Assembly (NCBI GenBank): GCA_012521295.1
Contig: JAAYMS010000075.1
Coordinates: 1-38,067 of the forward strand
Source: Bacillota bacterium
Lineage (GTDB): Bacteria; Bacillota; Limnochordia; Darwinibacteriales; Darwinibacteriaceae
Direction: 5' to 3'
DNA: 38,067 bases
Made by a program: the position numbers and the translations under genes. The notes beneath the pieces were generated by a model. It was not told the DNA's origin. It searched no databases and worked only from the letters and a program-made list of their open reading frames with translations. Positions 2,075 to 32,415 of this stretch are shown in pieces (position 1 is the first letter of the stretch; every line of letters starts with the position of its first letter).

Positions 2075-3139
2075 ATGAGTAAGACAATTGAAGGGATTCT
2101 CTCCAGAGTAAGGGAGTTGGGAGCGCAGGCATTTGTTGTGACGAGTCCCGTTAACCGTCGGTATCTAACCGGTTTCACCGGCTCAGCAGGGACTGTTTGG
2201 ATTTCTGAGAGCAAACGGGCCCTCCTTACAGATTTCCGCTATATTGAACAGGCCAAGGGCCAGTGCCCTGGCTGGGAAATCATCGAAATAGATGAAATGG
2301 AGCAGGCTATTGCCAGATTGATCTCAGCCGAAGGCGTTAAGGCTGTAGCCATTGAAGCTTCGCATGTGACTGTACACCAGTTCAAGTCCTGGCAGAAAGC
2401 GTTCTCTGCCGAGATTATTGAGACCGAGGGCATTGTAGAAAAGGTCCGCATGATTAAGACACCTGACGAGATTGAGAAGATTCGTCGAGCTGCCGCTATT
2501 GCCGACCATGCATTTGCTCAGATTCTGCCGTTGCTGCGCCCTGGGGTAACCGAACTGGAAATCGCTCTCGAATTGGAGTTTACTATGCGGAAAGCGGGAG
2601 CGAGCGGAGTTTCGTTTAGGCCTATCGTGGCCACTGGTGAACGTTCAGCTCTTCCGCATGCCGAACCAGGCAATCGAGTGTTTGCCAATGGTGACTTTGT
2701 CGTAATGGACTTCGGTTGTGTCTTCGAAGGTTACTGTTCGGATATGACTCGGACTGTTTTGATTGGCGAACCGACAGAAGAACACATGGTCATTTACGAT
2801 CTAGTCCTCCGTGCCCAGCTCGAATCTCTAGCCGCCGTTAAGCCTGGTGTTACCGGTAGGCAGGTGGACAGTGTGGCACGTGACATAATCGCCGATGCTG
2901 GCTATGGCCAGTACTTTGGTCACGGTTTGGGCCATGGAGTTGGTTTGGAAATACATGAACGCCCCCGTCTGTCACAGAAAGATGAAACAGTGCTGGAACC
3001 GGGCATGGTTGTAACTGTTGAACCAGGGGTCTATCTGCCTGGTTTCGGTGGTGTCCGCATTGAAGATTTGGTTGTGGTGACCGAATCGGGCAGAGAGATA
3101 CTCTCATCCACCTTTAAAGAACTCTATGTTGTGGAATAA
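2075..3139 (+). CDS. M24 family Xaa-Pro aminopeptidase (PepP/YqhT type)
   Basis: A 354-residue cytoplasmic metallopeptidase predicted to remove N-terminal residues preceding proline. An N-terminal creatinase-like domain (about 1-125) begins with the family pattern around FVVTSPVNRRYLTGFTGSAG. The C-terminal pita-bread domain carries the five expected metal ligands: Asp in VVMDFG, Asp in CSDMTRT, His in GHGLGHGVG, Glu in TVEPGVY and Glu in GVRIEDL. The ATG at 2075 follows AGAGGGGG at good spacing. Position directly before efp matches the yqhT-efp order of Bacillus and Clostridia. Family assignment is firm; the exact peptide substrate is not. Confidence 0.92.
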   Translation: MSKTIEGILSRVRELGAQAFVVTSPVNRRYLTGFTGSAGTVWISESKRALLTDFRYIEQAKGQCPGWEIIEIDEMEQAIARLISAEGVKAVAIEASHVTVHQFKSWQKAFSAEIIETEGIVEKVRMIKTPDEIEKIRRAAAIADHAFAQILPLLRPGVTELEIALELEFTMRKAGASGVSFRPIVATGERSALPHAEPGNRVFANGDFVVMDFGCVFEGYCSDMTRTVLIGEPTEEHMVIYDLVLRAQLESLAAVKPGVTGRQVDSVARDIIADAGYGQYFGHGLGHGVGLEIHERPRLSQKDETVLEPGMVVTVEPGVYLPGFGGVRIEDLVVVTESGREILSSTFKELYVVE

Positions 3140-3164
3140 AGCGTAGTGGGAGGAAGGTTTAGTA

Positions 3165-3722
3165 ATGATTTCGGTGAATGACTTACGTACAGGCCTGACA
3201 ATTGAATGGGATGGAGAAATTTACACCGTGGTTGATTTTCTCCACGTTAAGCCAGGCAAAGGCGCAGCTTTTGTCCGTACTAAGCTGAAGAACATCCGGA
3301 CCGGTGGTACCATTGAACATACATTCCGGGCCGGTGAAAAGGTATCCCGAGCTCGGATTGAGACCCGTGAAATGCAGTATCTGTACAATACGGGCAACGA
3401 GTACTATTTCATGGATACAGAAAACTATGAGCAGATTACCCTTATGAAGGATGACTTGGGCGATGCACCAAACTACCTGCTCGAAAACATGACCATTGGT
3501 ATCCAGTTCTATCAGAATCAAGCGATTGGCGTCGAACTGCCCACCACTGTAAATCTGAAGGTCGTGCATACAGAACCTGGATTTAAAGGTGATACAGCCA
3601 CAGGGGCCACCAAACCCGCGACTCTGGAGACTGGTATTACTATTCAAGTTCCCCTCTTTGTTGAAGAAGGGGATGTACTCAAGGTTGACACCCGTACTGG
3701 AGAATACCTCTCCCGGGCATAA
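3165..3722 (+). CDS. efp: Elongation factor P
   Basis: EF-P binds between the P and E sites of stalled ribosomes and promotes peptide bond formation at consecutive prolines. The protein is 185 residues, the usual size, with an N-terminal KOW-like domain and two OB domains. The tip loop reads VKPGKGAAF, with Lys32 at the position that carries the post-translational modification in the Bacillus protein. The C-terminal signature region ends in [23 protein letters not shown] lies just ahead of the ATG. No gene for a modifying enzyme is visible nearby. It follows the M24 peptidase by 25 bases and is probably co-transcribed with it. Confidence 0.97.
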
Positions 3723-14688: not shown

Positions 14689-14924
14689 AGGAGTACCAGG
14701 AGCTAAAATTTGAAGAAGCATTGGCTAAGCTCGAACAGGTTGTCCGGCAGCTGGAGTCTGGTGAGCTGACTCTAGATGAGTCGCTTAAGTTGTTTGAATC
14801 TGGTATTGTGTTGGCGCGGATCTGCAGCCAAAAGCTTGATGAAGCCGAGGGCAAGATCCAGCTGCTCATCGGTGAAGAAGGAGAGCGCAGCGCTTTTCAG
14901 TCAGAGGAGGAAGCATCACTATGA
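14685..14924 (+). CDS. xseB: Exodeoxyribonuclease VII small subunit
   Basis: The 79-residue helical small subunit that binds XseA. The diagnostic pattern FEEALAKLEQVVRQLESGEL, then LDESLKLFESGI, is present. The GTG start at 14685 lies inside the xseA stop (GTGA overlap), and its own stop overlaps the ispA start (ATGA), so xseA, xseB and ispA are translationally coupled. Confidence 0.96.
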   Translation: MKEYQELKFEEALAKLEQVVRQLESGELTLDESLKLFESGIVLARICSQKLDEAEGKIQLLIGEEGERSAFQSEEEASL

Positions 14925-15811
14925 GTGCGATTCTAAGGGCGAAGGCACAAGAGGTAGAAGCCCTGCTGGAGAAGACACTCCCTCCAAGTTCCACACCTCC
15001 CTCCATCATACATGAGGCTATGCGTTACGCTGTGCTGGGTGGTGGCAAAAGACTGCGAGCCGTCATGGCTGCTGCCGCCTGTGAGAGTGTTGGCGGAGAT
15101 CCTCGACAGGTTGGAGGAGTAGCTGCTGCCATTGAGATGATTCATGCCTACTCTTTGGTTCATGATGACCTCCCCAGCATGGACGACGATGACCTCCGAC
15201 GCGGTAAACCAACCGTTCACCGCAAATATGGAGAGGCAGTTGCCATTTTAGTCGGTGATGCCCTTCTCACCGAAGCATTTGCAGAACTAGCACGTATGCC
15301 TGAGAAGTATGGGGTGGCCTTTGAAACGACTGCTGCAGTAATTCGTGAGATAGCTGAGGCTGCCGGTTCACAGGGTATGGTCGGAGGGCAGACTGTCGAC
15401 ATTCTGGCAGAGAGAGGCATGGTGTCTGCAGATCTCAACAATCTCCGCTACATCCATGCCCACAAGACAGGGGCGCTGTTCAAGGCGGCTCTGCGCTCTG
15501 GGGGGCTGATCGGAGGCGCTTCGGAAAAGCAGCTAGAGGCGCTGACTAGGTTTGGCGAGTATTTTGGCCTGGCGTTCCAAATTACTGACGATATCCTAGA
15601 CGTTGTTGGCTCTAAGGATGCTCTCGGCAAGGAAGTTGGCAAGGACCTAGAGAAAGGCAAGTTGACCTATCCGTCGTTATTCGGGTTGGAGCAGGCACGG
15701 GAGATGGCGAAGGAAAGCGCAGACAAGTGTCTCCAAGCACTGGCGGAACTTCCCTATGAGAGCCGAGTTTTGCACGAAATCGCCCTTATGGTTGTAGATC
15801 GGGATCATTAA
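14921..15811 (+). CDS. ispA: Polyprenyl synthetase, farnesyl diphosphate synthase type
   Basis: Trans-isoprenyl diphosphate synthase (296 residues) that condenses isopentenyl diphosphate with allylic diphosphates. The first aspartate-rich motif is HDDLPSMDDDD (81-91) and the second is DDILD. The GGGKRLRAV stretch near 40-48 binds isopentenyl diphosphate. In the xseAB-ispA-dxs order it is the usual farnesyl or geranyl diphosphate synthase; product length cannot be read reliably. The next gene is an OapA-like protein and the OLE RNA, followed by dxs, so isoprenoid synthesis genes flank the RNA. Confidence 0.95.
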   Translation: MSAILRAKAQEVEALLEKTLPPSSTPPSIIHEAMRYAVLGGGKRLRAVMAAAACESVGGDPRQVGGVAAAIEMIHAYSLVHDDLPSMDDDDLRRGKPTVHRKYGEAVAILVGDALLTEAFAELARMPEKYGVAFETTAAVIREIAEAAGSQGMVGGQTVDILAERGMVSADLNNLRYIHAHKTGALFKAALRSGGLIGGASEKQLEALTRFGEYFGLAFQITDDILDVVGSKDALGKEVGKDLEKGKLTYPSLFGLEQAREMAKESADKCLQALAELPYESRVLHEIALMVVDRDH

Positions 15812-15825
15812 AGGAGAGATCTTCG

Positions 15826-16404
15826 TTGTCCAGTCGTTGGCGTGGGGTAGTGGTATTAACGCTGACTACCTTTGTCCTGTCAATAGTACTTAACCTAGGC
15901 AGCAACAGCCTGATGAAAGTCTTTTCACTTCCCCTTAGTTTTGCGCTGCTGTTCGGAATCATCCTAATGGGAATAATTTTTGATGTCATTGGGGTGGCAG
16001 CTGCAGCTGGGCGTGAAACACCTTTTCACGCCATGGCCTCCAATAAGGTCCGCGGAGCGCGGGAAGGTATTTGGCTTGTTCGCAACGCTGACCAAGTGTC
16101 AGTGTTCTGCAATGATGTGGTGGGCGATATTGGTGGCACGCTGAGCGGGGCGGTTGGAGCCAGCATCGTTTTCCAACTCTCAGCTCTGGGTTTCCCTTTA
16201 ACCGAAACGCTGCTTAGTACTATGATGATTGCCGTCATTGCAGCCTTGACCGTTGGAGGGAAGGCCATGGCCAAGTCTTTCGCCATAACAAGGTCGGTGG
16301 ATATTCTGCTGGTAGCTGGCAAGATTATCTATGGCCTCAAAAAGATTGGCATTAATATAGGCGGGAACGGCGGCCAGAAGCGGAAGAAGGGCAGGAGGCG
16401 GTAA
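15826..16404 (+). CDS. oapA: OLE-associated membrane protein, OapA-like
   Basis: A 192-residue membrane protein with about four hydrophobic segments (near 9-25, 36-58, 108-125 and 130-146) and a very basic tail (GQKRKKGRRR). It has a DUF21/CNNM-like look, the fold of some magnesium transporters. OapA in alkaliphilic Bacillus binds OLE RNA and carries it to the membrane; it is encoded next to the RNA between ispA and dxs, exactly as here. The basic tail is suitable for RNA contact. The TTG at 15826 has AAGGAGAG eight bases upstream. Identity is inferred from location, topology and tail, as I could not run a profile search. Confidence 0.82.
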   Translation: MSSRWRGVVVLTLTTFVLSIVLNLGSNSLMKVFSLPLSFALLFGIILMGIIFDVIGVAAAAGRETPFHAMASNKVRGAREGIWLVRNADQVSVFCNDVVGDIGGTLSGAVGASIVFQLSALGFPLTETLLSTMMIAVIAALTVGGKAMAKSFAITRSVDILLVAGKIIYGLKKIGINIGGNGGQKRKKGRRR

Positions 16405-16414
16405 CCAGGCTTAC

Positions 16415-16444
16415 TTGCATTAGCAGTCTCGCATATGTTATAAT
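16415..16444 (+). promoter_or_regulatory. Promoter of the OLE RNA
   Basis: TTGCAT (16415-16420) and TATAAT (16439-16444) are 18 bases apart, and TG at 16436-16437 makes the second an extended -10 element. It lies 10 to 40 bases after the oapA stop and just upstream of the structured RNA region, predicting a start of transcription near 16451. This suggests that the RNA is made as a discrete transcript as well as possibly by read-through. Confidence 0.65.
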
Positions 16445-16450
16445 ACCGTC

Positions 16451-17157
16451 AAGAAAGGCAAATGGCGCAGTATTCTAGTCGCCACCTTGTTGTCGAAGAC
16501 GGGCCTAAAAATCCGTTAAGGGCACATCGATGAAGTCTCTGGTGGTGGCCTTCGACGCCCAGTCGGGGGCTGCTGCTGGGGGTTAAGGGGGAAGGGGAAC
16601 CTACAAGGGCATGTAGGCTTACCCTTCCCCCACGGAGACCCAAATGCGTAGGGCCGCGGAGATCGCTTCCCTATGGTTTGGGATTGAACCTGCACGCGAT
16701 ACGCCAAGGTGCATTATACGTACATCAGTGTTGTGTGCAGTGTAGCCTGCCTTGAGTGGTGGCTGGGGGATAGTGTCTCAAGAACAGGAGCCTTGTGGCC
16801 AGAGGCGAGTGTTCGACTATCGAGAGATAGGGGCGCTTGAAACCGTCACTGCAAAAGAGGCTAGACAATGAAGGATGGCGCCGAGGAAAGCTCCTAGACT
16901 GTTTCGTCCGCGATAGTATCTTGGGGATTACGGTGTGGACTAAGTGGTAATCCAGCCTCGCTCATGGTGACAGAGCGAAAAGGCCGGAAAGGGGGAACCG
17001 CCAGCTGCGGCGACGAGCTGGAGGGCCTTTGGGAAAACCTGCTGGACCTTAAGCCACAATCTTTACCTAAGATGCTGCCATTTGCCGTTTTCTACATAGC
17101 TATTAGTGTCGGTCTACAACGAGTAACAGTCTGGATGATGGTTACTCCGTTTTTTTT
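16451..17157 (+). ncRNA. OLE RNA (Ornate Large Extremophilic RNA), predicted
   Basis: An interval of 849 bases without a credible gene lies between oapA and dxs, the standard place of OLE RNA in anaerobic and extremophilic Bacillota. It is densely structured. Visible helices include GTCGAAG (16492-16498) with CTTCGAC (16550-16556); a 10-bp stem 16587-16596/16622-16631 topped by CCTACA/TGTAGG (16600-16605/16612-16617); CTTGAG/CTCAAG (16751-16756/16777-16782); CTATC/GATAG with a GAGA tetraloop (16817-16830); GGATTA/TAATCC (16925-16930/16948-16953); and AAAGGCC/GGCCTTT (16979-16985/17024-17030) enclosing CCAGCT/AGCTGG. A promoter precedes it and a terminator ends it, giving about 700 nt, near the known OLE size. 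In Bacillus halodurans this RNA forms a membrane complex with OapA and affects ethanol, cold and magnesium tolerance. Ends are approximate. Confidence 0.85.
17121..17157 (+). terminator. Intrinsic terminator at the 3' end of OLE RNA
   Basis: GAGTAAC (17121-17127) pairs with GTTACTC (17141-17147) around a 13-base loop, followed by CG and eight T residues (17150-17157). It would end the OLE transcript about 95 bases before dxs. The stretch from 17158 to the dxs start holds no gene that I can support. Confidence 0.8.
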
Positions 17158-17253
17158 ATTCAGGTTCCTGCTCTGTGAAAGAAGAAGAATCCTGCGGGAA
17201 ATAATGTTTGTGAGTATGGGCCGAACGACCAAGCCGAAAAAAGAGGTAAGAGA

Positions 17254-19134
17254 ATGCTGTACAAACTGCTTAATCAGATCGCCGGTCCTCAGGATCTCAA
17301 GGCATTGAGTCTAGAAGAGCTGGAACAGCTTTCAGCAGAGATTCGTCATCTCATAATTGCGACTGTAGAGAAGAACGGCGGGCACTTAGGCGCCAACCTA
17401 GGTGTTGTAGAGCTTACGATTGCTCTTCACTCAGTGCTTTCTAGCCCTGAAGACCGGATAATCTGGGATGTGGGGCATCAGTGTTACGCGCACAAGATTC
17501 TGACGGGGCGCTTCCACCAGTTTGCTACTCTGCGGCAGTTAGGTGGGATTTCGGGATTCCCGAGACGTAGTGAAAGTGAGCACGATCATTTCGGGGTCGG
17601 TCACAGCTCAACAGCAATTTCCGCGGCGGCAGGAATGGCCATAGCTCGAGACCACTTAGGTTTAGATTACAATGTGGTTGCTGTGGTTGGTGATGGCGCC
17701 CTAACCGGTGGTATGGCTTTTGAAGCGCTCAACCATATTGGTTCGCTTCAGCGCGACATTGTAGTTATCCTCAATGACAATGAGATGTCCATCGCCAATA
17801 ATGTGGGCGCATTAGCCGATTACCTTAGTCGTCTGCGCCTTGACCCCACTTTGTATCGAGCGAGAGAAGAACTGACTCATTTAATCAGCCGCATCCCTGC
17901 AATTGGCAGTCCCATGTCGAGACTCACGCATAGTCTCAAGGAGACCCTTAAGAACATGCTTCCTGGACAGCTTTTTGAGGAGCTTGGGTTTACTTATTCA
18001 GGCCCCTTTGACGGGCACAATATTGGGCAGCTGCGTAAAGCAATCCGTGATGGGATTAAGCGCCACGGCCCCGTGCTGATTCATGTGCATACACAAAAGG
18101 GTAAAGGATACGCCCCGGCAGAAGCCAATCCAGCTAAGTTTCACGGTATTGGGCCGCTGACGACAGAATCCCATGACCAGGAAGTCAGCTTTAGTCAGGT
18201 ATTTGGGTCGACGGTGGAAAAACTCGCAGCCAACGATAAACGGATTGTGGCGATCACTGCTGCGATGGCTGATGGGACAGGTTTGAGTCAGTTTGCACAG
18301 CGATTTCCAGATCGTTTCTTTGACGTCGGCATCGCGGAGCAGCACGCGCTTACATTAGCCGCCGGGATGGCAGCTGATGGTTTGCGTCCAGTCGTTGCAC
18401 TGTACTCGACCTTCTTGCAGCGCGGCTATGATCAAGTTCTCCACGATATCTGCCTGCAGGGCTTACCAGTGGTGATTGGGATTGATCGAGCTGGTGTCGT
18501 TGGTGACGATGGGCCGACACACCATGGTGTCTTTGATCTAAGCTTCTTGCGGCACATCCCTGGGATCATTATACTAGCGCCGAGTTCGGGACAAGAGTTG
18601 GCCGAGATGCTAACTTGGGCTGTGGCCCAGGATCACCCGGTAGCGATTCGTTATCCTAGAAGCCGCACAGTTCAGCCAGCAGAAGTAGTTTATGTCGATA
18701 CATCAAGCCCTATTCTTTCCGAGGAAGTGCGGGCTGGGCGTGATTGCCTGATTTTGGCTGTAGGGCCCATGGTTCAGCAAGCTCTAGCAGCGGCAGAGCA
18801 ACTCTACCCTGAGTTCGACTGTTCGGTGGTCAATGTACGCAGCATCAAGCCATTGGATTCGGCTGCCATATTGCGTCAGGCGCGGTTGTCGCGCTGTGTA
18901 GTTACAGTAGAAGATAATGTTTTGGCCGGAGGATTTGGCAGCAGTATTCTGGAATTATTGAGCAGTGAGCCTGGCATAGTGGTTACTCGGATTGGATATC
19001 CCGATGAGTTTATTCCTCAGGGCCCCATTACCACTCTCCATGAGCGATACGGCCTGACCGCCGAAGGTATTGCTCGGGCAGTTCGAAGTCTGCTCGGCCA
19101 GGATATGGCGGCTGCAGCAGCTAAAGGAGATTAG
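17254..19134 (+). CDS. dxs: 1-deoxy-D-xylulose-5-phosphate synthase
   Basis: The thiamine diphosphate-dependent enzyme that condenses pyruvate and glyceraldehyde 3-phosphate, the first step of the MEP isoprenoid pathway. It has 626 residues. Visible features are GGHLGANLGVVELT (about 42-55), the thiamine diphosphate motif GDGALTGG (147-154) with the downstream NDN, the transketolase pyrimidine domain with catalytic Glu in IAEQHALTLAAGMA, and a C-terminal transketolase domain with VTVEDNVLAGGFGS. AGAGGT precedes the ATG by about seven bases. It follows the OLE terminator, so it needs read-through or its own promoter, which I do not see clearly. Confidence 0.97.
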   Translation: MLYKLLNQIAGPQDLKALSLEELEQLSAEIRHLIIATVEKNGGHLGANLGVVELTIALHSVLSSPEDRIIWDVGHQCYAHKILTGRFHQFATLRQLGGISGFPRRSESEHDHFGVGHSSTAISAAAGMAIARDHLGLDYNVVAVVGDGALTGGMAFEALNHIGSLQRDIVVILNDNEMSIANNVGALADYLSRLRLDPTLYRAREELTHLISRIPAIGSPMSRLTHSLKETLKNMLPGQLFEELGFTYSGPFDGHNIGQLRKAIRDGIKRHGPVLIHVHTQKGKGYAPAEANPAKFHGIGPLTTESHDQEVSFSQVFGSTVEKLAANDKRIVAITAAMADGTGLSQFAQRFPDRFFDVGIAEQHALTLAAGMAADGLRPVVALYSTFLQRGYDQVLHDICLQGLPVVIGIDRAGVVGDDGPTHHGVFDLSFLRHIPGIIILAPSSGQELAEMLTWAVAQDHPVAIRYPRSRTVQPAEVVYVDTSSPILSEEVRAGRDCLILAVGPMVQQALAAAEQLYPEFDCSVVNVRSIKPLDSAAILRQARLSRCVVTVEDNVLAGGFGSSILELLSSEPGIVVTRIGYPDEFIPQGPITTLHERYGLTAEGIARAVRSLLGQDMAAAAAKGD

Positions 19135-23082: not shown

Positions 23083-24471
23083 ATGCGGAGGGTGTTTCTT
23101 GCTGTTGCTGTAGTGGTCTTCTTGGTTGTTACCTTTTTGGCGTTCGGAGCTCCTCTATGGGTGAGCTGGGCAGGTATACCATCAGAGGTTAGAGTTTTTC
23201 CAGGAACGGAGCTGTCCTTGAGGATCCAGCTGCCGTTCCGCTTATTTGACGAAACTGGTAGTGATGTTACAGGAGACTCAGGAGAGTTCTTTTTTCAGAC
23301 TGATAAGGTAGGAACCACCAAGTACCAAGTAAGCCTGTTTGGGATCTTTCCAATTAGCGAAATGGTCGTCGATGTTGTGCCGTTGGTCCGGGTGTTTCCC
23401 GGGGGCCAGTCAATTGGAGTACTAGTTAGTGCCCATGGATTAAGGGTTAGAGAGATCATCGCTGTGCAGGGTTTGGACGGACGCGATCATTTTCCAGCAC
23501 GGGATGCGGGCATTCTTCCCGGAGACATCCTGATCTCAATTGAGGGTCAGGATATCCACCGTCCAGAGCAGGTAAGCCATCTCGTAAATGCAGCAGTGGG
23601 AAGGAAGCAGGAACTGACCGTCGTAGTCCGGCGCAACCAGCGGGTGCTGACACGTCAGATTCGCCCGGTCAAGGCTCGCCGTACCGACGTTTTCGGCAAT
23701 ACTTCTGAGGTTTATCTTCTCGGCATTATTTTAGAAGATCCTGCAGCCGGGGTTGGTACACTAACCTTCTATGATCCTCAGACTCGAAGATATGGAGCTT
23801 TGGGGCACGCCATCACGGATGTCTCAGGGCGCGAGCTTGTGATCGATAGCGGTAGTATTGTAGAGGCTTCCATCGACAGTATCCGTCTTGGCTTGCGGGG
23901 TTCGCCCGGCGAAAAACTTGGTTTCTTCCACGGAGAGCAAGACTTACTTGGTTCCATCGAGTACAACTCAGATTTTGGTATTTTTGGAACACTAGCATCT
24001 CTACCGGCACATCCCTATTTTTCTGAACCCATACCAGTAGCTTTCAGTCATCAAGTGCGGGTGGGGCCGGCAGAAATCTATACGGTGATCTCTGGCAATC
24101 GGGTCGAGCGTTTTGCCGTTGAAGTGATCAAAGTGGTCAACCAGAACCGGCCAAGCGACAAGGGCATGGTCATCCAAGTAACAGACAAGCGCCTTTTACA
24201 AGAGACGGGAGGCATTGTGCAAGGGATGTCAGGCAGCCCTATTGTACAAGACGGCATGTTGATTGGAGCAGTTACCCACGTGTTTGTCAATGATCCTACT
24301 CGGGGTTATGGTGCCTTTGCTGAATGGATGATCTACGAAGCCGGATTAGCCTCTGACCTTCCTGCGAATTCAACAGCCGCAGGAAGGTTTTTTCGCGCCG
24401 TTAGCGAACAATTAGTCAGACCATTATCCAAAATCAGCATTGCACAGCAGCGGAATAGGTGGGATGTGTGA
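23083..24471 (+). CDS. spoIVB: SpoIVB peptidase (S55 family)
   Basis: The forespore-secreted serine peptidase that signals sigma-K activation across the spore membranes. It has 462 residues: an N-terminal membrane anchor (about 3-24), a linker domain, a PDZ domain (about 115-200, with [18 protein letters not shown]) and the S55 catalytic domain. The catalytic His is in [10 protein letters not shown] (about 242) and the catalytic Ser is in [11 protein letters not shown] (about 383), with an Asp in QVTDKRLL (about 368). The ATG at 23083 is preferred over an in-frame GTG at 23071 because the G-rich ribosome-binding site lies between them. Its usual neighbour spo0A is displaced about 8 kb downstream. 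Confidence 0.95.
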
Positions 24472-24472
24472 A

Positions 24473-24889
24473 GTGAATGGTAAAACGCTGGTATTAGGGG
24501 TTATTGGCTCCGATGTACATGCTGTTGGAAACAAGATACTTGAGATCGCCCTTAAAGAAGCTGGCTTTAACGTTGTGAATTTGGGCGTGTTAGTGTCGCA
24601 GAAAGAGTTTGTGGAAGCTGCGATTGAGACAAGTGCCGACGCTGTCCTTGTCTCGTCGCTATATGGTCATGCTGAAATTGACTGCAGGGGTCTGCGTGAA
24701 GCCTTTGTAGAAGCCGGTTTAGGTGACATTATTCTCTACATTGGTGGGTATTTAGTAGTGGGCAATCAGCCGTGGGAGGAAACCAAGGCCAAGTTTGAAG
24801 CCCTTGGCTTTGATCGTGTTTACCCTCCTAACACTCTTCCTGAAGATTTCATCCCCCAGCTCCGTGCGGACTTGGGCCTCGAGGGGTAG
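24473..24889 (+). CDS. glmS: Glutamate mutase sigma subunit (B12-binding)
   Basis: The small cobalamin-binding subunit (138 residues) of adenosylcobalamin-dependent glutamate mutase, which isomerises L-glutamate to (2S,3S)-3-methylaspartate. The B12 motif DxHxxG is visible as DVHAVG, with His16 as the lower cobalt ligand, the same number as in the clostridial enzyme; this supports the GTG start at 24473. The downstream [18 protein letters not shown] and DRVYPPNT segments are also family hallmarks. An in-frame ATG at 24464 has no spaced ribosome-binding site. It starts one base after the spoIVB stop, so the fermentation block is in the same direction and probably reads on from spoIVB. Confidence 0.95.
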
Positions 24890-24893
24890 GGCC

Positions 24894-26291
24894 ATGGAAC
24901 TGATTGTTTTAATCGACATCGGGAGCACATTTACAAAGGTTAGTGCCGTGGATTTGGCTGAAGCACGCCTGATCGGCCGTTTTCAAGCACCAACTACTCC
25001 CTTCAACGTTACAGAGGGCCTTGAAAATGCCCTGAGCGGCCTGGCAGAAGAGATGAGCAGGCAGGGTGTTTCTCCAAGCGACCTGCGGCAGGCGCGTAAA
25101 CTCGCTTGTTCCAGTGCCGCAGGCGGGCTGCAGATGATCGCCATTGGCCTTGTCAAAGACCTTACTGCCGAAGCAGCACGACAGGCAGCTTTGGGCGCGG
25201 GGGCGCGTGTGCTTAAGACCTATGCCTATGAGCTAACCGAAGCTGATCGCGATGAAATTGCGGCGCTCCAGCCTGATATCATTCTACTTGCTGGCGGAAC
25301 CGATGGAGGTAATCATACCACAATCATCCACAATGCCAAGGTCCTGGCGGAACTTGATTTGGACATTCCGGTCATTGTAGCAGGTAATCGCAGCGTGGCC
25401 TCGGAGGTTGCTGGATATTTATCAAGAAGCTTCAGTACATATATTACTGCAAATGTGATGCCTGAGATAGGACGCCTTCAAGTGGAGCCTGCTCGAGAGG
25501 TAATTCGGCAGGTGTTTATGGAGACGATTGTTCAAGCTAAGGGATTATCGAAGGCATCAGAACTGATAGAGGGTATTTTCATGCCCACCCCAGCAGCTGT
25601 GCTGCGGGCAGGCACCTTACTCAGCAGAGGTGCCGGCAAAACTCCAGGTTGGGGAGACCTGCTGATCGTTGACGTAGGTGGAGCGACTACCGATGTTCAT
25701 TCGCTTGGCTCTGGGCACCCTACTCGCCCAGGTACAGTTGTGCGTGGCCTGCCTGAGCCCTTTGCAAAACGTACTGTCGAAGGAGATTTAGGCGTTCGCG
25801 TAAGCGCCCTGCCGCTGGTTGAGGCGGTGGGGGCAGAAGTAATCGGCGATCACCTCGGCTGGGAACCAAGCCAGGTTATAGAACGTGCCCAGCGGATCAC
25901 ATCTGAACCAGACTATCTGCCTCAGAGCCCCGAAGATGTCAAGTTTGATCAGGCACTGGGGTTCTTTGCCACTAAGACGGCCTCAAGCCGCCACGCCGGG
26001 CGCATCAATCAGGTGTTTACTCCCACCGGCGCAGTGTGGATTCAAGAAGGTAAAGATCTCTCGCAGATCAAGCCAGTAATAGCAACGGGTGGCGTGTTTG
26101 TCAACAGCCCCAATGCACGAGAGGTGTTGATGGGAGTGGTCCACGACCCTGTGGAACCATTTGAGTTGAAACCTACGGCGCCTGAGTTCTATCTTGATTC
26201 GAACTATATCTTGGCGGCAGGTGGCCTATTGGCAGAACAGGATAGCCTTACGGCTTTTGCGCTGCTAGAGAATTCTTTGAGGTCTGTGTAA
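24894..26291 (+). CDS. glmL: Glutamate mutase reactivase GlmL/MutL
   Basis: An ASKHA-fold ATPase (465 residues) found between the two glutamate mutase subunits, believed to reactivate the mutase by exchanging damaged cobalamin. The N-terminal phosphate loop is LIVLIDIGSTFTKVSAVD, and a second ATP loop LLIVDVGGATTDVHSLG lies near residue 255. The ILLAGGTDGGN stretch near 130-140 is typical. The ATG at 24894 follows GAGGGGTAGGG; upstream in-frame starts would run through glmS. It is not the mismatch repair MutL, despite the shared name. Confidence 0.93.
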   Translation: MELIVLIDIGSTFTKVSAVDLAEARLIGRFQAPTTPFNVTEGLENALSGLAEEMSRQGVSPSDLRQARKLACSSAAGGLQMIAIGLVKDLTAEAARQAALGAGARVLKTYAYELTEADRDEIAALQPDIILLAGGTDGGNHTTIIHNAKVLAELDLDIPVIVAGNRSVASEVAGYLSRSFSTYITANVMPEIGRLQVEPAREVIRQVFMETIVQAKGLSKASELIEGIFMPTPAAVLRAGTLLSRGAGKTPGWGDLLIVDVGGATTDVHSLGSGHPTRPGTVVRGLPEPFAKRTVEGDLGVRVSALPLVEAVGAEVIGDHLGWEPSQVIERAQRITSEPDYLPQSPEDVKFDQALGFFATKTASSRHAGRINQVFTPTGAVWIQEGKDLSQIKPVIATGGVFVNSPNAREVLMGVVHDPVEPFELKPTAPEFYLDSNYILAAGGLLAEQDSLTAFALLENSLRSV

Positions 26292-26303
26292 GGGGGGACT
26301 TTC

Positions 26304-27761
26304 GTGGCCGAACAGTTGTCAAGTACTAAACTCGACTGGGATGTGCTGCAGGAAGAACGCCAGGCTGTTCTGGCATCCTGGGAGACCGGGAATGAAGTTG
26401 ATTTAGAAGAGGCAGTTCAGTTTCACCATGAACTGCCGCCCGAGAAGAACTTTGCAAGGAAGCTTACTCAAGCGAAAAATGCGGGACTAACTCTGGCTCA
26501 ACCTCGGGCCGGAGTGGCTGATCTTCGCAGCCATGTGGAATTATTGCGGTATCTTTCCACAGAGGGTGAAGCAGATTTACTTCCCACGACGATTGATTCA
26601 TATACTCGTCAAAACCGGTACGAGGAGGCGCAGCGCGGTCTAGATGAAAGCCGCAAAGAAGGCCGTTCGCTCCTGAACGGGTTTCCTGCGGTCAACCACG
26701 GGGTCGCGAACTGCCGCATTCTAATCGAAGAGTTGGACCTGCCCCTTCAGGTCAGGCACGGCACTCCGGATGCGCGGCTGTTGGCAGAAATAACTTTGGC
26801 GGCAGGGTTTACTGCGTTTGAAGGTGGAGGAATATCATACAATATCCCCTATGCCAAGAACGTACCCCTAGAGGAAAGCATCAGAGCATGGCAGTACGTA
26901 GACCGATTGGTGGGCTATTACGCAGAGCATGGTGTTATTATTAACCGTGAGCCCTTTGGCCCACTAACAGGTACTCTGGTAGCTCCCTGCATTTCTCACA
27001 GCGTCGCTGTGATTGAGGCCGTTCTTGCGGCAAAACAAGGTGTAAAGAGCCTCACCCTAGGCTATGGGCAGTGCGGCAATCTGATTCAAGACGTGGCCGC
27101 TGTGCAGACTCTGCCTGTTCTTGCTCAGGAATACCTAGAACGGGAAGGCATTACTGACGTAGAATTAACTACCGTGTTCCATCAGTGGATGGGTGGATTC
27201 CCTAATGATGAGCCGAGAGCATTTGGGGTTATTTCTTTAGGTGGGGTAACGGCTGCTCTCAGTAAGGCGACGAAAGTTATTGTAAAAACACCGCATGAGG
27301 CCTTGGGTATTCCCACCAAAGAAGCGAATGCTGCCGGTATTAGGGCAACCAAGCAGCTCCTGAACATGTTGCGTGATCAGGTGTTCCCAGAGTGTTCACA
27401 GCTGAAAGAAGAGCGTGAAATCATATTGACCGAAACCCGGCAGATCCTAGACAAAACCCTCGAATTGGGTGAGGGCGATTTCGCGTTGGGTGCGGTTCGA
27501 GCGTTTCAGGCAGGAGTCATTGATGTGCCGTTCGCTCCGAGTGTTTACAATGCTGGGCGCACCATGCCCGCCCGCGATAACAACGGCGCAGTGCGCTTCT
27601 TGAACTGGGGCAGCCTGCCGTTCAGCAAGGAAATCCAGGAATTTCACAAGGCCAAGTTGGCTGAACGAGCTCGCTATGAAGAGCGCACTCCAGGTTTTCA
27701 ATTTGTAATCGATGACATTTATGCCATCGGCAAAGGTATGCTTGTGGGTAGGCCACGTTAG
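26304..27761 (+). CDS. glmE: Glutamate mutase epsilon subunit
   Basis: The catalytic TIM-barrel subunit (485 residues) that with GlmS carries out the carbon-skeleton rearrangement of glutamate. The conserved N-terminal segment [14 protein letters not shown], the substrate region [14 protein letters not shown], and [22 protein letters not shown] are clear, as is [17 protein letters not shown] start at 26304 follows AGGGGGG. Length is equal to the clostridial enzyme. Together with GlmS and GlmL it makes a full mutase system. Confidence 0.96.
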
Positions 27762-27772
27762 GAGATGGTTAG

Positions 27773-29122
27773 ATGAACGAGATTCGAGTGCTTTCACCTA
27801 CCGCGATCTTGGGCTATGGGTTTCCGGTTGCTTCGTTTGAAGAAGGGATGCGGCGCGACCCTCACGTGATTGCGGTGGATGCGGGTTCTACCGATCCGGG
27901 GCCCTATTATCTTGGTTCAGGAAAATCATTTACGCAGCGCTCAGCGGTAAAACGTGATTTGAAGTATCTCATAGATGCAGCTCTAGAAAGGAACATCCCT
28001 CTGATTATTGGCACTGCTGGTGGTTCGGGTGCACGCCCCCATGTGGAATGGAACTGGGAGATTATACAAGAGATCTTTGCAGAAACAGGCCAAACGGCCA
28101 AAGTTGCAGTAATCTTCAGTGATGTAGACAAAGACGTGGTCGTGCGAAAGCTCTATGAAGGCCAGATTTCACCCTGCGGTCCTGTGGGCGAGTTGACCAC
28201 CGAAGCTGTAGAGGAAGCCACATATCTTGTGGCACAGATGGGTGTGGAACCTATCATTAATGCGCTGCAGGAAGGCGCACAGATTGTTCTAGCAGGGCGT
28301 GCCTATGATCCGGCCGCCTTTGCTGCTGTCCCCATCATGCACGGATTTGATCAAGCACTAGCCCTGCACATGGGCAAGATCCTAGAATGTGCAGCCATAG
28401 CCGCTGTACCAGGAAGTGGTAGTGACTGCCTCTTGGGAGTACTGAAGCGGGATTCCTTTATTCTTGAGGCACTCAATCCGGAGCGTCAGTGTACTCCTAT
28501 GTCCGTTGCCGCTCATACGCTGTATGAGAAGAGCGATCCGTACCGGTTGCCCGGGCCGGGTGGCACGCTGGATCTGACTGATACTCAGTTTTCGGCCCTT
28601 GATGGAGGACGGGTCGAAGTTTCTGGTACAAAATTTGTGCCCACACCCAGATTTTCTGTTAAACTAGAAGGGGCAAAGCCGATTGGGTTCCGTACCGTCA
28701 GCATCGCGGGCGTGCGCGATCCGATTATGATCGGTCAGATCGATGACATTCTTGCCGGTGTCCGGCAGCGTGTTCAGGACAATTTCAGCGATCTGCAGAA
28801 CTACTCCCTGCATTTTCGCTGTTACGGCCGGGATGGGGTCATGGGTGATTTAGAACCTACTCCTAATCCCGGGCATGAGCTTGGCATTATCATCGAAGCA
28901 GTAGCAGACACGCAGGATACGGCTAACACCATCTGCGGATTCGCCCGATCCACTCTGCTGCACTATGGTTATCCGGGAAGGAAATCTACTGCAGGAAATC
29001 TGGCTTTTCCGTACTCTCCCTCGGACTTTCCCGCTGGTGAAGTATACGAATTCTGCGTGCATCACTTGATGGAGCTCGATGATCCGCGGGAGTTGTTTAA
29101 GATAGAGTGGCGGGGTGAGTAA
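27773..29122 (+). CDS. AtuA-family (DUF1446) protein
   Basis: A 449-residue protein of the acyclic terpene utilisation AtuA / DUF1446 family. Family-like segments are IAVDAGSTDPGPYYLGSG (about 33-50), IGTAGGSGARPHV (about 78-90), LAGRAYDPAAFAA and CYGRDGVMGDLEPTP. No membrane segment is present. The activity of this family is not established; it is named after a gene of citronellol/geraniol degradation in Pseudomonas. Here it is between glmE and a DUF4387 gene, four bases from the latter, inside a glutamate fermentation block, so a role in a C5 dicarboxylate step is conceivable. No catalytic residues can be assigned. Confidence 0.8.
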   Translation: MNEIRVLSPTAILGYGFPVASFEEGMRRDPHVIAVDAGSTDPGPYYLGSGKSFTQRSAVKRDLKYLIDAALERNIPLIIGTAGGSGARPHVEWNWEIIQEIFAETGQTAKVAVIFSDVDKDVVVRKLYEGQISPCGPVGELTTEAVEEATYLVAQMGVEPIINALQEGAQIVLAGRAYDPAAFAAVPIMHGFDQALALHMGKILECAAIAAVPGSGSDCLLGVLKRDSFILEALNPERQCTPMSVAAHTLYEKSDPYRLPGPGGTLDLTDTQFSALDGGRVEVSGTKFVPTPRFSVKLEGAKPIGFRTVSIAGVRDPIMIGQIDDILAGVRQRVQDNFSDLQNYSLHFRCYGRDGVMGDLEPTPNPGHELGIIIEAVADTQDTANTICGFARSTLLHYGYPGRKSTAGNLAFPYSPSDFPAGEVYEFCVHHLMELDDPRELFKIEWRGE

Positions 29123-29425
29123 ATGCGTTACGTGCGAGATGTGGCGGCTGTAATCCGCAGCAAGAATGCAGGGCCGTTTGAACTGACCTTTGATCTTATG
29201 TTTACTAACAAACATGATTATGATGAGGTTCGTCAGGCAATTACACCTGCTAAGATTGCTGAGTTGTACAAAATCCCTGAAGAAAACGTGCTGAAGATCG
29301 TCCATTTCGAACCTGCTTTAGCCGTAAAGGTTACCATTAAGCGTCCTAGGGCAAGTGGAGCACTAGGAGAAACGGATGTATATGGAGCTCAACAGCATGC
29401 ACCATTATTTGAACTAACTTATTAG
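29123..29425 (+). CDS. DUF4387 family protein
   Basis: A 100-residue protein with the pattern VAAVIRSKNAGPFELTFDLMF near the start and the late NVLKIVHFEPALAVKVTIKR region. This matches the DUF4387 family, small partners commonly found with or fused to AtuA-like proteins. It starts immediately after the AtuA stop codon, behind GGGGTGAG, so the two are almost surely translated together and may form one complex. No activity is known. Confidence 0.8.
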   Translation: MRYVRDVAAVIRSKNAGPFELTFDLMFTNKHDYDEVRQAITPAKIAELYKIPEENVLKIVHFEPALAVKVTIKRPRASGALGETDVYGAQQHAPLFELTY

Positions 29426-29445
29426 AAATGGGAGCGATAGGTAAA

Positions 29446-30699
29446 TTGAAGATCGTTGATGTCATTCTGTCCAAGGGCTTGTCAGGTTTTTATTTTGATG
29501 ATCAGCGGGCAATTCGTTCTGGAAACGCTCGCGAAGACGGTTTTGCCTATCTAGGCGAGGCCGTTACACCAGGATTTACCAAGATCCGCCAAGCTGGGGA
29601 GTCCGTTTCTGTTCAGCTTGTTCTCGAAGACGGACAGATTGCCTACGGTGACTGCGCGGCGGTGCAGTATTCCGGTGCAGGCGGAAGAGATCCATTGTTC
29701 TTAGCCGACCAGTATATTCCTGTAATTGAGGAATATGTTGTGCCCCTTTTGAAGGGTCAAGAGCTGGGCTCGTTCCGTGAGATGGCAGAGAAAATCGACA
29801 ACTGCCGAAATGGTGACGGTAAACTAATTCATACCGCAATTCGTTACGGCGTCACCCAGGCGATTCTGGACGCCGTTGCCAAGAGCCAAGGCCTGACCAT
29901 GGCTGAGGTTATCAGCAACGAATATGGAACCGAGCTTGCTACCGAACCCATTCCGCTCATGGGCCAAACTGGCGATGATAGGTTTATCAACGCAGACCGC
30001 ATGATTCTCAAGCAAATTGATGTACTGCCTCACGGATTGTTCAACAACATCTCTAAGCTGGGCGCAAATGGCGAGAAACTGCGGGATTATCTGTCGTGGC
30101 TGAAGTCCCGGGTAGAATACCTGCGCTCTTCTTCTGATTATGTACCTGACTTCCAGGTTGACGTCTATGGTACTATTGGTGAGGCCTTCGGACAGGATAT
30201 TGAGGCGATTGGTAAGTACTGCGCAGAACTGGTAGAAATAGTCCATCCATATAACCTGCGTATCGAAGGCCCGATCGACTTAGATGATCGCGAAGCTCAA
30301 ATTGAGGCCATGGCTAAATTGCGCCGATACGTGGATGAAAACAACATTCCAGTTGAGTTCGTGGCCGACGAGTGGTGCAATACATTAGAGGACGTCAAGG
30401 ATTTCGTTCAGGCTAAAGCTGGCCACATGATTCAGATTAAGGCTCCCGACTTGGGTGGAATTAACAACACCATCGAAGCCATCTTGTACTGCAAAGAGTA
30501 TGGTGTCAGAGCGTATCTGGGAGGAACCTGCAACGAGACTGAGCGTTCTGCGCAAGTTACGGTGCACATTGCCTTGGCTACAAAACCCTGCCAGATCCTA
30601 TCGAAACCAGGCATGGGCTTTGATGAAGGTGCATCCATCTGCAGAAACGAAATGAACCGTACGCTGGCCCTTTTGAACTGGAAAAAGGGAAGGAGATAA
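29446..30699 (+). CDS. mal: 3-methylaspartate ammonia-lyase
   Basis: An enolase-superfamily lyase (417 residues) that removes ammonia from 3-methylaspartate to give mesaconate, the second step of the methylaspartate pathway. Features are the N-terminal KIVDVILSKGLSGFYFDDQRAI, the substrate loop QYSGAGGRDPLF, His in VLPHGLFNN, metal ligands in VDVYGTIGEA, RIEGPI and VADEWCN, and the catalytic lysine in IQIKAPDLGG. The TTG at 29446 reproduces the clostridial N-terminus (starting with KIVDV); an ATG at 29428 would add six residues but has no ribosome-binding site. It requires magnesium and normally potassium. Confidence 0.96.
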   Translation: MKIVDVILSKGLSGFYFDDQRAIRSGNAREDGFAYLGEAVTPGFTKIRQAGESVSVQLVLEDGQIAYGDCAAVQYSGAGGRDPLFLADQYIPVIEEYVVPLLKGQELGSFREMAEKIDNCRNGDGKLIHTAIRYGVTQAILDAVAKSQGLTMAEVISNEYGTELATEPIPLMGQTGDDRFINADRMILKQIDVLPHGLFNNISKLGANGEKLRDYLSWLKSRVEYLRSSSDYVPDFQVDVYGTIGEAFGQDIEAIGKYCAELVEIVHPYNLRIEGPIDLDDREAQIEAMAKLRRYVDENNIPVEFVADEWCNTLEDVKDFVQAKAGHMIQIKAPDLGGINNTIEAILYCKEYGVRAYLGGTCNETERSAQVTVHIALATKPCQILSKPGMGFDEGASICRNEMNRTLALLNWKKGRR

Positions 30700-30700
30700 T

Positions 30701-31543
30701 ATGAGAACGGTTGACTATGCCCAGATAGTGGAAACTGTCAGAGATATGTGCCTCAGGGCCAATTCCATCCTCCCCAAGGATGTAGAAGAAGCAATCGCAC
30801 GAGCACATGAAAAAGAGGTTTCCCCTGTGGGCAGGAGCGTCCTGGGCACAATGCTGGAAAATGCAGAGATTGCTCGGGAAAGGCGCATGGCGCTCTGTCA
30901 AGATACGGGCATGGTAGTGGTTTTTGCCGATGTCGGCCAAGATGTACACATCACAGGTGGGCTCTTGAGTGAGGCAATCAACGAAGGAGTTCGCCAAGGG
31001 TATAAAGATTTCTATTTTCGCAACAGTGTTGTGCGCGATCCTCTCGAGCGCGTAAACACAGGGGACAATACCCCTGCCGTTGTGCATGTGAACCTGGTCG
31101 AAGGCGATCGGCTGCGCCTAATGGTGGCTCCAAAAGGTTTTGGCAGCGAGAACATGTCTGCTCTCAAGATGCTGAAGCCTGCTGAAGGAGTGGCCGGGGT
31201 CAAGAAGTTTGTTGTGGATACCGTTACTCAAGCCGGTGGTAATCCCTGCCCGCCGATTGTGATAGGGGTAGGGATCGGCGGTACCATGGACAAGGCAGCG
31301 TTAATGGCTAAGCGTGCACTGCTAAGGCCAATTGGTGAACGCAGTCCAAAGCCGCACATCAAACAGCTCGAAGAAGAACTGCTGGAGCTGGTTAACAAGA
31401 CAGGAGTGGGGCCGCAGGGGTTTGGCGGTACCCAAACAGCACTTGATGTGTTTGTAGAAACCTTCCCAACGCATATCGCAGGCCTGCCGGTGGCAGTTAA
31501 CATCAACTGTCATGTGGCACGCCATACCGAGGTGGTCTTATAA
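30701..31543 (+). CDS. Class I fumarase/mesaconase alpha subunit
   Basis: The iron-sulfur alpha subunit (280 residues) of a two-subunit class I hydratase of the fumarase, L-tartrate dehydratase or mesaconase kind. The three cysteines that hold the 4Fe-4S cluster are C66 (ALCQDTG), C183 (NPCPP) and C270 (NINCH). Family segments GDNTPAVVH, APKGFGSEN and GIGGTMDKA are present. In context it should hydrate mesaconate to citramalate, the third step of the pathway. AAGGAGA precedes the ATG. The beta subunit normally follows immediately but does not do so here. Confidence 0.9.
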   Translation: MRTVDYAQIVETVRDMCLRANSILPKDVEEAIARAHEKEVSPVGRSVLGTMLENAEIARERRMALCQDTGMVVVFADVGQDVHITGGLLSEAINEGVRQGYKDFYFRNSVVRDPLERVNTGDNTPAVVHVNLVEGDRLRLMVAPKGFGSENMSALKMLKPAEGVAGVKKFVVDTVTQAGGNPCPPIVIGVGIGGTMDKAALMAKRALLRPIGERSPKPHIKQLEEELLELVNKTGVGPQGFGGTQTALDVFVETFPTHIAGLPVAVNINCHVARHTEVVL

Positions 31544-32415
31544 TGCATTCCACCACGCTTGTTCAAGCCGTCTATTATGCTCCGCGCGGCCGCCGGCGCC
31601 TGATAAATCTTGGTGCCCTGATTTCGCAGCGTTATCTGCTTCCGGAAGACCGTCTAATCGGTTTGATCGGTGATGCCGGAGCCGGGAAGTCCCTCTTGGT
31701 GAGAGGTATGTTTCCAGAGTTAGTTCTGACTAATGACGATGAGGGCGTCAATGTGCGCCCTCTCCCTATCTTGGCAGATGCTCGTGATGGTTTCTTCGCC
31801 GGTCACATCTATCACCTAGATGTGCGTTTCGAAATGGCTTTTACGCAGCTCTGGGAGCTCGCCGAGGCCGTTCGGCAGGCGGTTACTGCGGGGTGCACAG
31901 TAGTGGTCGAGCATTTTGATCTCTTGTATGACGTTCTCGGCTTGAACGCAGCGTGTTTGATTGCAGTAGGCGAAGAAGTCGTTGTAACAAAACCGACAGT
32001 CTTTGGGCCGTTCCCCAAGGAATTGGCGCAGTATGCTTATGATTCTCTAGTCTACCGCAAGATGGCGCACAGCGCCGAAGACCTTCTGTCCATTGTTTTT
32101 CCGCAGATGGGTTTTGATCCACCAACCATTCACAGTGACGTCCGGCGGGGATTTGTTGTTGAGTTTTCTGAGAAACTAGATATAGATTTGGAAGAAGTGG
32201 AAAAGCGAGTTCATGAGTATATCAGCAAGGGCCTTCCGATTGCGTATTACGATGAGAATCACATTCTCATAGGTGATGAGCTGATTTATTGTTCGGGCCC
32301 TAGACTTCACATGCGGAGAACAAGCGATATCGTCAACTTCAGGCTAGATAAAGAGCTTCAGTATTCACCACTTCGTCAGACATTTTTATTAGTGGGGCGT
32401 GTTGGATCGGAATAG
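31543..32415 (+). CDS. P-loop protein with SAD-like C-terminus, in glutamate fermentation block
   Basis: A 290-residue protein. A P-loop GDAGAGKS lies at 43-50, following a conserved amphipathic start (TTLVQAVYYAPRGRRRLINLG). The C-terminal part (about 170-290) contains H176, C250-SGPRLH-256 and TSDIVNF, which recall the second additional domain of alanyl-tRNA synthetase (CGGTHV...TGDI), though the C-to-H spacing is longer. Proteins with this name are annotated in clostridial genomes. It starts on the last base of the mesaconase stop (TAATG), so it belongs to that operon, and 11 bases later spo0A begins. No function is known to me; an NTP-dependent sensor or editing-like role is speculation. 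Confidence 0.65.
   Translation: MHSTTLVQAVYYAPRGRRRLINLGALISQRYLLPEDRLIGLIGDAGAGKSLLVRGMFPELVLTNDDEGVNVRPLPILADARDGFFAGHIYHLDVRFEMAFTQLWELAEAVRQAVTAGCTVVVEHFDLLYDVLGLNAACLIAVGEEVVVTKPTVFGPFPKELAQYAYDSLVYRKMAHSAEDLLSIVFPQMGFDPPTIHSDVRRGFVVEFSEKLDIDLEEVEKRVHEYISKGLPIAYYDENHILIGDELIYCSGPRLHMRRTSDIVNFRLDKELQYSPLRQTFLLVGRVGSE

Follow-up and report, generated by a model that had tools for sequence, protein, structure and literature searches.

Members of the OLE class, abundant non-coding RNAs of about 600 nt, rank among the largest structured RNAs of bacteria for which no biochemical function is known, and their mechanism is unsettled even in model species. OLE RNA dimerizes, binds the proteins OapA, OapB, OapC and bS21 and sits at the membrane, and it protects cells against ethanol, cold, Mg2+ and poor carbon sources (PMC12265935, PMC9723947, PMC11332333). 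A published survey counts 2,822 hits in Bacillota, and two variants are distinguished from the full-length type, with P7-P9 shortened or with P7 and P8 missing (PMC11332333). The ole gene of H. halodurans is part of a large operon and also has a promoter of its own, and processing is presumed to yield an RNA of about 630 nt (PMC9723947).

The window analyzed here is a stretch of 38,067 nucleotides from a Bacillota bacterium of the family Darwinibacteriaceae (contig JAAYMS010000075.1), and its OLE is a new example of the known class: an ordinary, complete RNA in a rare gene order. Compared with the full-length OLE RNAs of H. halodurans and clostridia, it covers all 616 model positions, has the same helices and conserved blocks, is accompanied by genes for the same protein partners, and has the same kind of neighbors (ispA, oapA, dxs, tlyA, nadK, argR, recN, spoIVB, and spo0A). 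What differs is that oapA lies before OLE and that a probable terminator follows it.

Identity and fold of the OLE RNA

The features of the locus, all on the forward strand, are as follows.

14921-15811, +, ispA-type polyprenyl (farnesyl) diphosphate synthase (PF00348, E 1.3e-61; NF045485, 350.7 bits, cutoff 275)
15826-16404, +, oapA, 192 aa, TTG start; 45-78% identical to the gene beside OLE in 22 relatives
16415-16444, +, candidate OLE promoter matching the consensus: TTGCAT (16415-16420), 18 nt, TATAAT (16439-16444)
16446-17097, +, OLE RNA, full length (RF01071, 460.4 bits; covariation, 79 sequences)
16457-16466, +, closing stem P1, 5' strand, pairing with 17077-17086; outside the Rfam structure
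16520-16536, +, conserved GGGCACATCGATGAAGT, identical to the capitals of the Rfam consensus; 5' side of the k-turn region
16587-16631, +, stacked 10-bp and 6-bp stems with the loop CAAGGGCATG, 88% and 99.7% paired
17077-17086, +, closing stem P1, 3' strand (covariation)
17121-17157, +, probable intrinsic terminator: GAGTAAC, 13 nt, GTTACTC, CG, eight T
17254-19134, +, dxs, 1-deoxy-D-xylulose-5-phosphate synthase (TIGR00204, 753.3 bits, cutoff 466)

Searching the entire window against Rfam with cmscan returned OLE (RF01071) as the sole match, running end to end through the model (positions 1-616 of 616) with an E-value of 3.5e-132 and a score far above the cutoff of 50 bits. The preliminary description had placed an OLE locus in a structured interval, 16405-17253, between an oapA-like gene ending at 16404 and dxs starting at 17254; the Rfam comparison that it suggested bears out the OLE RNA, full length at 460 bits, and the interval is indeed strongly structured, although the RNA proper is narrower (652 nt) than the interval in which it lies. 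OLE is present in single copy in the window's genome, and its score falls in the lower part of the relatives' range (460 bits, with relatives reaching 502). Measured against the Rfam consensus, an insertion of about 23 nt occupies the apical part of helix 16690-16740, and extra sequence is found in the distal part of helix 16772-16837; the region 16690-16840 shows insertions and no deletions, which, with the end-to-end match, places this RNA in the full-length type. The joint identity of 16446-17097 as OLE RNA and of 15826-16404 as its membrane partner OapA is practically certain, and the RNA is most likely functional.

The fold was examined in an alignment of 79 OLE sequences drawn from the window's order, its class, and other Bacillota. 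The minimum free energy of the RNA is -283.8 kcal/mol, compared with -239.3 +/- 7.7 for shuffled sequences (z -5.8). Of the Rfam pairs, 144 can be mapped to the window, and they form standard pairs in 91.2% of alignment cells with 1963 double-sided changes, against 40-46% and 315-541 in a control in which the 3' partners were slid by 1-3 bases. Stem P1 covaries as well (94.2% of cells paired and 228 double-sided changes in the 79 sequences, with 32-59% and 24-60 for its slid versions); it is not new, because the published model already names a P1 in domain 2 (PMC12265935). The conserved GGGCACATCGATGAAGT makes up the 5' side of the region that in H. halodurans forms the k-turn bound by OapC (PMC9723947), and at the level of sequence the putative k-turn-forming bases (the OapC site near P5) match the consensus letters here. 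The OapB site of the class is at P12.2/P13. The loop CAAGGGCATG is complementary to the loop GCCCA at 16557-16561, which parallels the published intermolecular kissing loop of OLE (PMC12265935).

Of the helices singled out in the preliminary description, the stacked stems are upheld. Its 10-bp stem (16587-16596/16622-16631) is paired in 88.3% of cells with 135 double-sided changes across the 79 sequences, the stacked inner 6-bp stem is 99.7% paired in the Rfam structure, and the letters of its candidate GAGA hairpin (CTATC-GAGA-GATAG, 16817-16830) are present, in a region outside the Rfam model. The proposed 7-bp long-range pairing of 16492-16498 with 16550-16556 was rejected: the letters are complementary, yet 60% of cells are paired with 15 double-sided changes, and the 16550-16556 half sits in a conserved local stem (97% paired, 169 double-sided changes), so that the complementarity is probably a matter of chance.

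The interval had also been described as protein-free, and comparisons by phase and by indel agree. Differences from the two closest relatives fall 37/36/30 by phase in OLE and 58/43/232 in dxs, only dxs having a third-position bias. Comparing the window with 16 family members gives 136 indel runs, of 1, 2, 4, 8, or 10 nt, and none has a length divisible by three. The largest open reading frame of the interval (16964-17308, 114 aa) gave no Pfam or NCBIfam match.

OapA and the other protein partners

The upstream gene had been called OapA-like and its product a membrane protein with a basic tail, and three lines of evidence concur with OapA: 45-78% identity among relatives, co-occurrence with OLE, and a CNNM-like structural model. 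Its C-terminal tail carries 8 K/R in the last 20 residues, and a DVVGD motif lies at residue 97. Conserved K/R are present as well, and with the tail they are candidates for the cluster of positive charges that in OapA faces the cytoplasm. The 192-aa protein matched no Pfam or NCBIfam family; the few OapA genes caught by the Pfam CNNM model score at or below its cutoff. The AlphaFold model is all-helical (pLDDT 77.9), and its top six PDB matches are the membrane domains of CNNM/CorB/CorC Mg2+ transporters (Foldseek probability 0.98-1.00, E-values only 0.01-0.5), a likeness already published for OapA (PMC11332333). The model points to a membrane protein with four transmembrane helices and related to the CNNM domain, the helix count being approximate because of the pLDDT. 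The predicted fold is the same as that of MpfA, CorC, and CorB, whereas OapA has neither a CBS nor a CorC domain and is about 17-20% identical to these transporters. Likeness to described OapA proteins lies in features and in the relatives' genes (position next to OLE, OLE-tied distribution, hydrophobic helices, basic tail, and CNNM-like fold); the difference is that the gene is encoded upstream of OLE here.

Among 73 genomes of the class, 64 carry OLE, 63 carry both OLE and OapA, 9 carry neither, and 1 carries OLE only; OapA is thus present in 63 of 64 genomes with OLE and in 0 of 9 without it. The exception (G038; L013/L121, contig G038:C36) has a full-length OLE of 475 bits between ispA and dxs, and OapA was not found anywhere in this 99% complete genome, which has one CNNM protein. 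Two other loci (L081 and L091) have OapA-like genes with no Rfam OLE match within about 8.5 kb around them, representing either OLE-free OapA or an OLE elsewhere in the genome.

The genes for the remaining partners were sought across the window's genome. A profile of genuine OapB finds one gene, between map and infA, and the family was confirmed through PDB 7k9b; the absence of OapB is rejected by this result, the Pfam KOW search for OapB having returned only the gene for L24 (L115) and that for a NusG-like protein. OapB is present also in relatives without OLE, matching the published pattern. OapC is an 82-aa L7Ae-family protein encoded between rpoC and rpsL, with YbxF as its nearest PDB match, and a second L7Ae protein follows apparent nusA and ylxR genes, the position expected of YlxQ. 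The same genome also encodes a CNNM protein (C109:10298-10879, within a 441-aa frame), and a second, partial CNNM match lies at C168:134-295. Strong CNNM matches occur in about one-third of the OLE-positive relatives and in 3 of the 4 OLE-negative ones.

Gene order and transcription signals

The order in the window is ispA-oapA-OLE-dxs, with oapA starting 14 nt after ispA and OLE following oapA at a distance of 41 nt. The preliminary description had read this local order correctly and had taken it for the normal site of OLE, whereas the usual order is ispA-OLE-oapA-dxs. In 30 loci (the window and 29 relatives, with ispA, OLE, oapA, and dxs placed by tblastn), the window order occurs in the window, G011 (L016), and G004 (L027); OLE precedes oapA in 26, and the locus of G038 (L013) lacks oapA. 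A scan with an OapA alignment gave 80 Bacillota loci, one genome per species, of which 78 have OLE and 2 do not; OLE precedes oapA on the same strand in 77 of the 78, and only L031, taken as the same genome as G004, has the window order. Where both genes share a contig in genomes of the class (58 genomes), OLE comes first in 53, oapA comes first in 3, and oapA is convergent on the other strand in 2. The swapped order is found only in one clade of three genomes and two genera, which groups together in the OLE tree with a support of 100/100, so that one event is enough to explain it; the OLEs of this clade differ by about 13%. It is a minor rearrangement that has apparently gone unreported.

A second, different rearrangement, with oapA after OLE on the opposite strand and convergent with it, is seen at L154 (G074:C48) and L155 (G076:C227) in another family of the class. 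Between OLE and dxs lies a 156-nt spacer; the idea that it is a remnant of a former downstream oapA was rejected, as it shows no DNA match to the oapA of other loci and no resemblance in its translations. A shortened OLE in G018 was likewise dismissed, the 295-nt match being a gene cut by the contig end. In one relative from the window's order, an additional full-length OLE lies away from oapA (L119, G034:C52:5354-11992; 472 bits, 3001-3639 on the reverse strand), followed by an LPG_synthase_TM gene and then by a CNNM gene with a CBS/CorC ORF, and with a divergent cation-efflux gene on its other side. The CNNM gene and the CBS/CorC ORF are apparently one MpfA-like protein split by a frameshift; an MpfA-like protein is thought to replace OLE-OapA, and this OLE adjoins such a protein.

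In 29 of the 30 loci (random stretches, 3.4%), a TATAAT with at most one mismatch ends 1-4 nt ahead of model position 1 of OLE, TTG lies 17-18 nt upstream of it in 27 of 30, and a close TATAAT match is found in 43 of 50 further loci; a generic promoter scan made no call at this site. The putative promoter precedes OLE whether the gene upstream is ispA or oapA, so promoter and OLE appear to have moved together. Downstream, GTAAC-loop-GTTACTC-C-(C/G)-T8 recurs in all three swapped genomes with differing loops, and 17121-17157 is probably an intrinsic terminator, judging from its letters; the hairpin is no stronger than shuffles (z -0.09), and a generic terminator scan found no match there. Given a candidate promoter that moved with the RNA and a shared probable terminator, OLE has the look of a transcript that stands alone and is no longer coupled to oapA.

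The wider cluster is classical (nusB, xseAB, tlyA, nadK, argR, recN, spoIVB, and spo0A, several of these names coming from reading translations), and genes such as spoIVB and spo0A mean that the organism has sporulation genes. spoIVB and spo0A are usually close neighbors; in the window, a glutamate-fermentation (methylaspartate) cassette lies between them at 24440-31543, with genes for a B12-binding subunit, MutL, MutE, an AtuA-like protein, methylaspartate ammonia-lyase, and fumarase. Adjoining spo0A at 31543-32412 is a 290-aa protein with a P-loop-like GDAGAGKSLL motif, for which no Pfam family was found. Without the OLE complex, H. halodurans grows more poorly when it has to use non-preferred carbon sources, glutamate among them (PMC11332333).

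Explanations of the locus and their meaning

Three rival readings are very unlikely. An artefact of assembly or binning might be suspected since at least two of the assemblies, those of the window's genome (186 contigs) and of G004 (about 210), are fragmented, but the swap is common to three separate genomes of two genera, one of them (G011) on a 1.1 Mb contig of an assembly of about 10 contigs; the well-supported single clade, the divergence among its OLEs, and the partial conservation of the spacer after OLE make such an artefact very improbable. A decaying, non-functional copy left behind by the rearrangement would suit the rare position and the lowish score, and it is just as hard to credit, as the RNA is full length with its helices and conserved single-stranded blocks intact, is kept by the three swapped genomes despite about 13% divergence, and retains an intact candidate promoter together with genes for OapA, OapB, and OapC. 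Least probable of all, and close to negligible, is a different structured element that merely resembles OLE, for example, a long riboswitch-like cis-regulatory leader of dxs. In the swapped clade the stretch does come immediately before dxs, with both on one strand; against this, the end-to-end, covariation-backed match rules out a dxs leader, oapA stands between OLE and dxs in most relatives, a probable terminator separates the two here, and the RNA co-occurs with OapA.

How the RNA is transcribed is a closer question. OLE might mainly be cut by processing from one ispA-oapA-OLE-dxs transcript, as proposed for H. halodurans, leaving the swap without regulatory meaning; the presumed processing in that species, where ole also has its own promoter, the weak terminator hairpin, and the short oapA-OLE gap speak for this, while the perfect or near-perfect TATAAT that nearly all loci have right before OLE, kept after the move, and the inverted repeat with T8 common to the three swapped genomes speak against it, and we consider it unlikely though worth keeping in view. 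We lean slightly toward the alternative that the clade's OLE is a self-contained gene from promoter to terminator, with its transcription uncoupled from oapA, oapA read from the ispA operon, assembly fully in trans, and a 3' end that would arise by termination and not by processing. The gene order and the promoter sequence are observed directly, and the transcriptional uncoupling is what we infer.

Studies of OLE in H. halodurans and in clostridia allow a mechanism to be tentatively proposed, to which we give a little less than even confidence. OLE RNA would dimerize through kissing loops, and the dimer would bind an OapA dimer at the membrane, loaded with OapC at the k-turn and with OapB; the RNA may then act as the regulatory part of a CNNM-like device for divalent-cation transport or sensing under stress (Mg2+, cold, alcohols, and poor carbon sources). 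Counting against this explanation, the window's genome also encodes a CNNM protein, which blurs the division of labor between OLE-OapA and MpfA-type proteins. In the swapped clade, OLE and its promoter would have shifted from before oapA to after it; oapA would then be read from the ispA operon, and OLE would have a promoter and a terminator to itself; RNA and protein would thus arise from two transcripts and come together in trans. Taken as a whole, the explanation that combines OLE with OapA, this mechanism, and a relocated unit is, in our judgment, highly probable.

One more full-length OLE adds little to a class already covered by Rfam and by surveys. The useful part is the natural rearrangement, in which OLE and its putative promoter travel as one module and which shows that a place downstream of OLE is not required for oapA. 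The swapped clade is a lineage in which the origin of the ends of OLE RNA is cleanly testable, and what the locus itself adds is that separate transcripts appear to give rise to OLE and OapA there.
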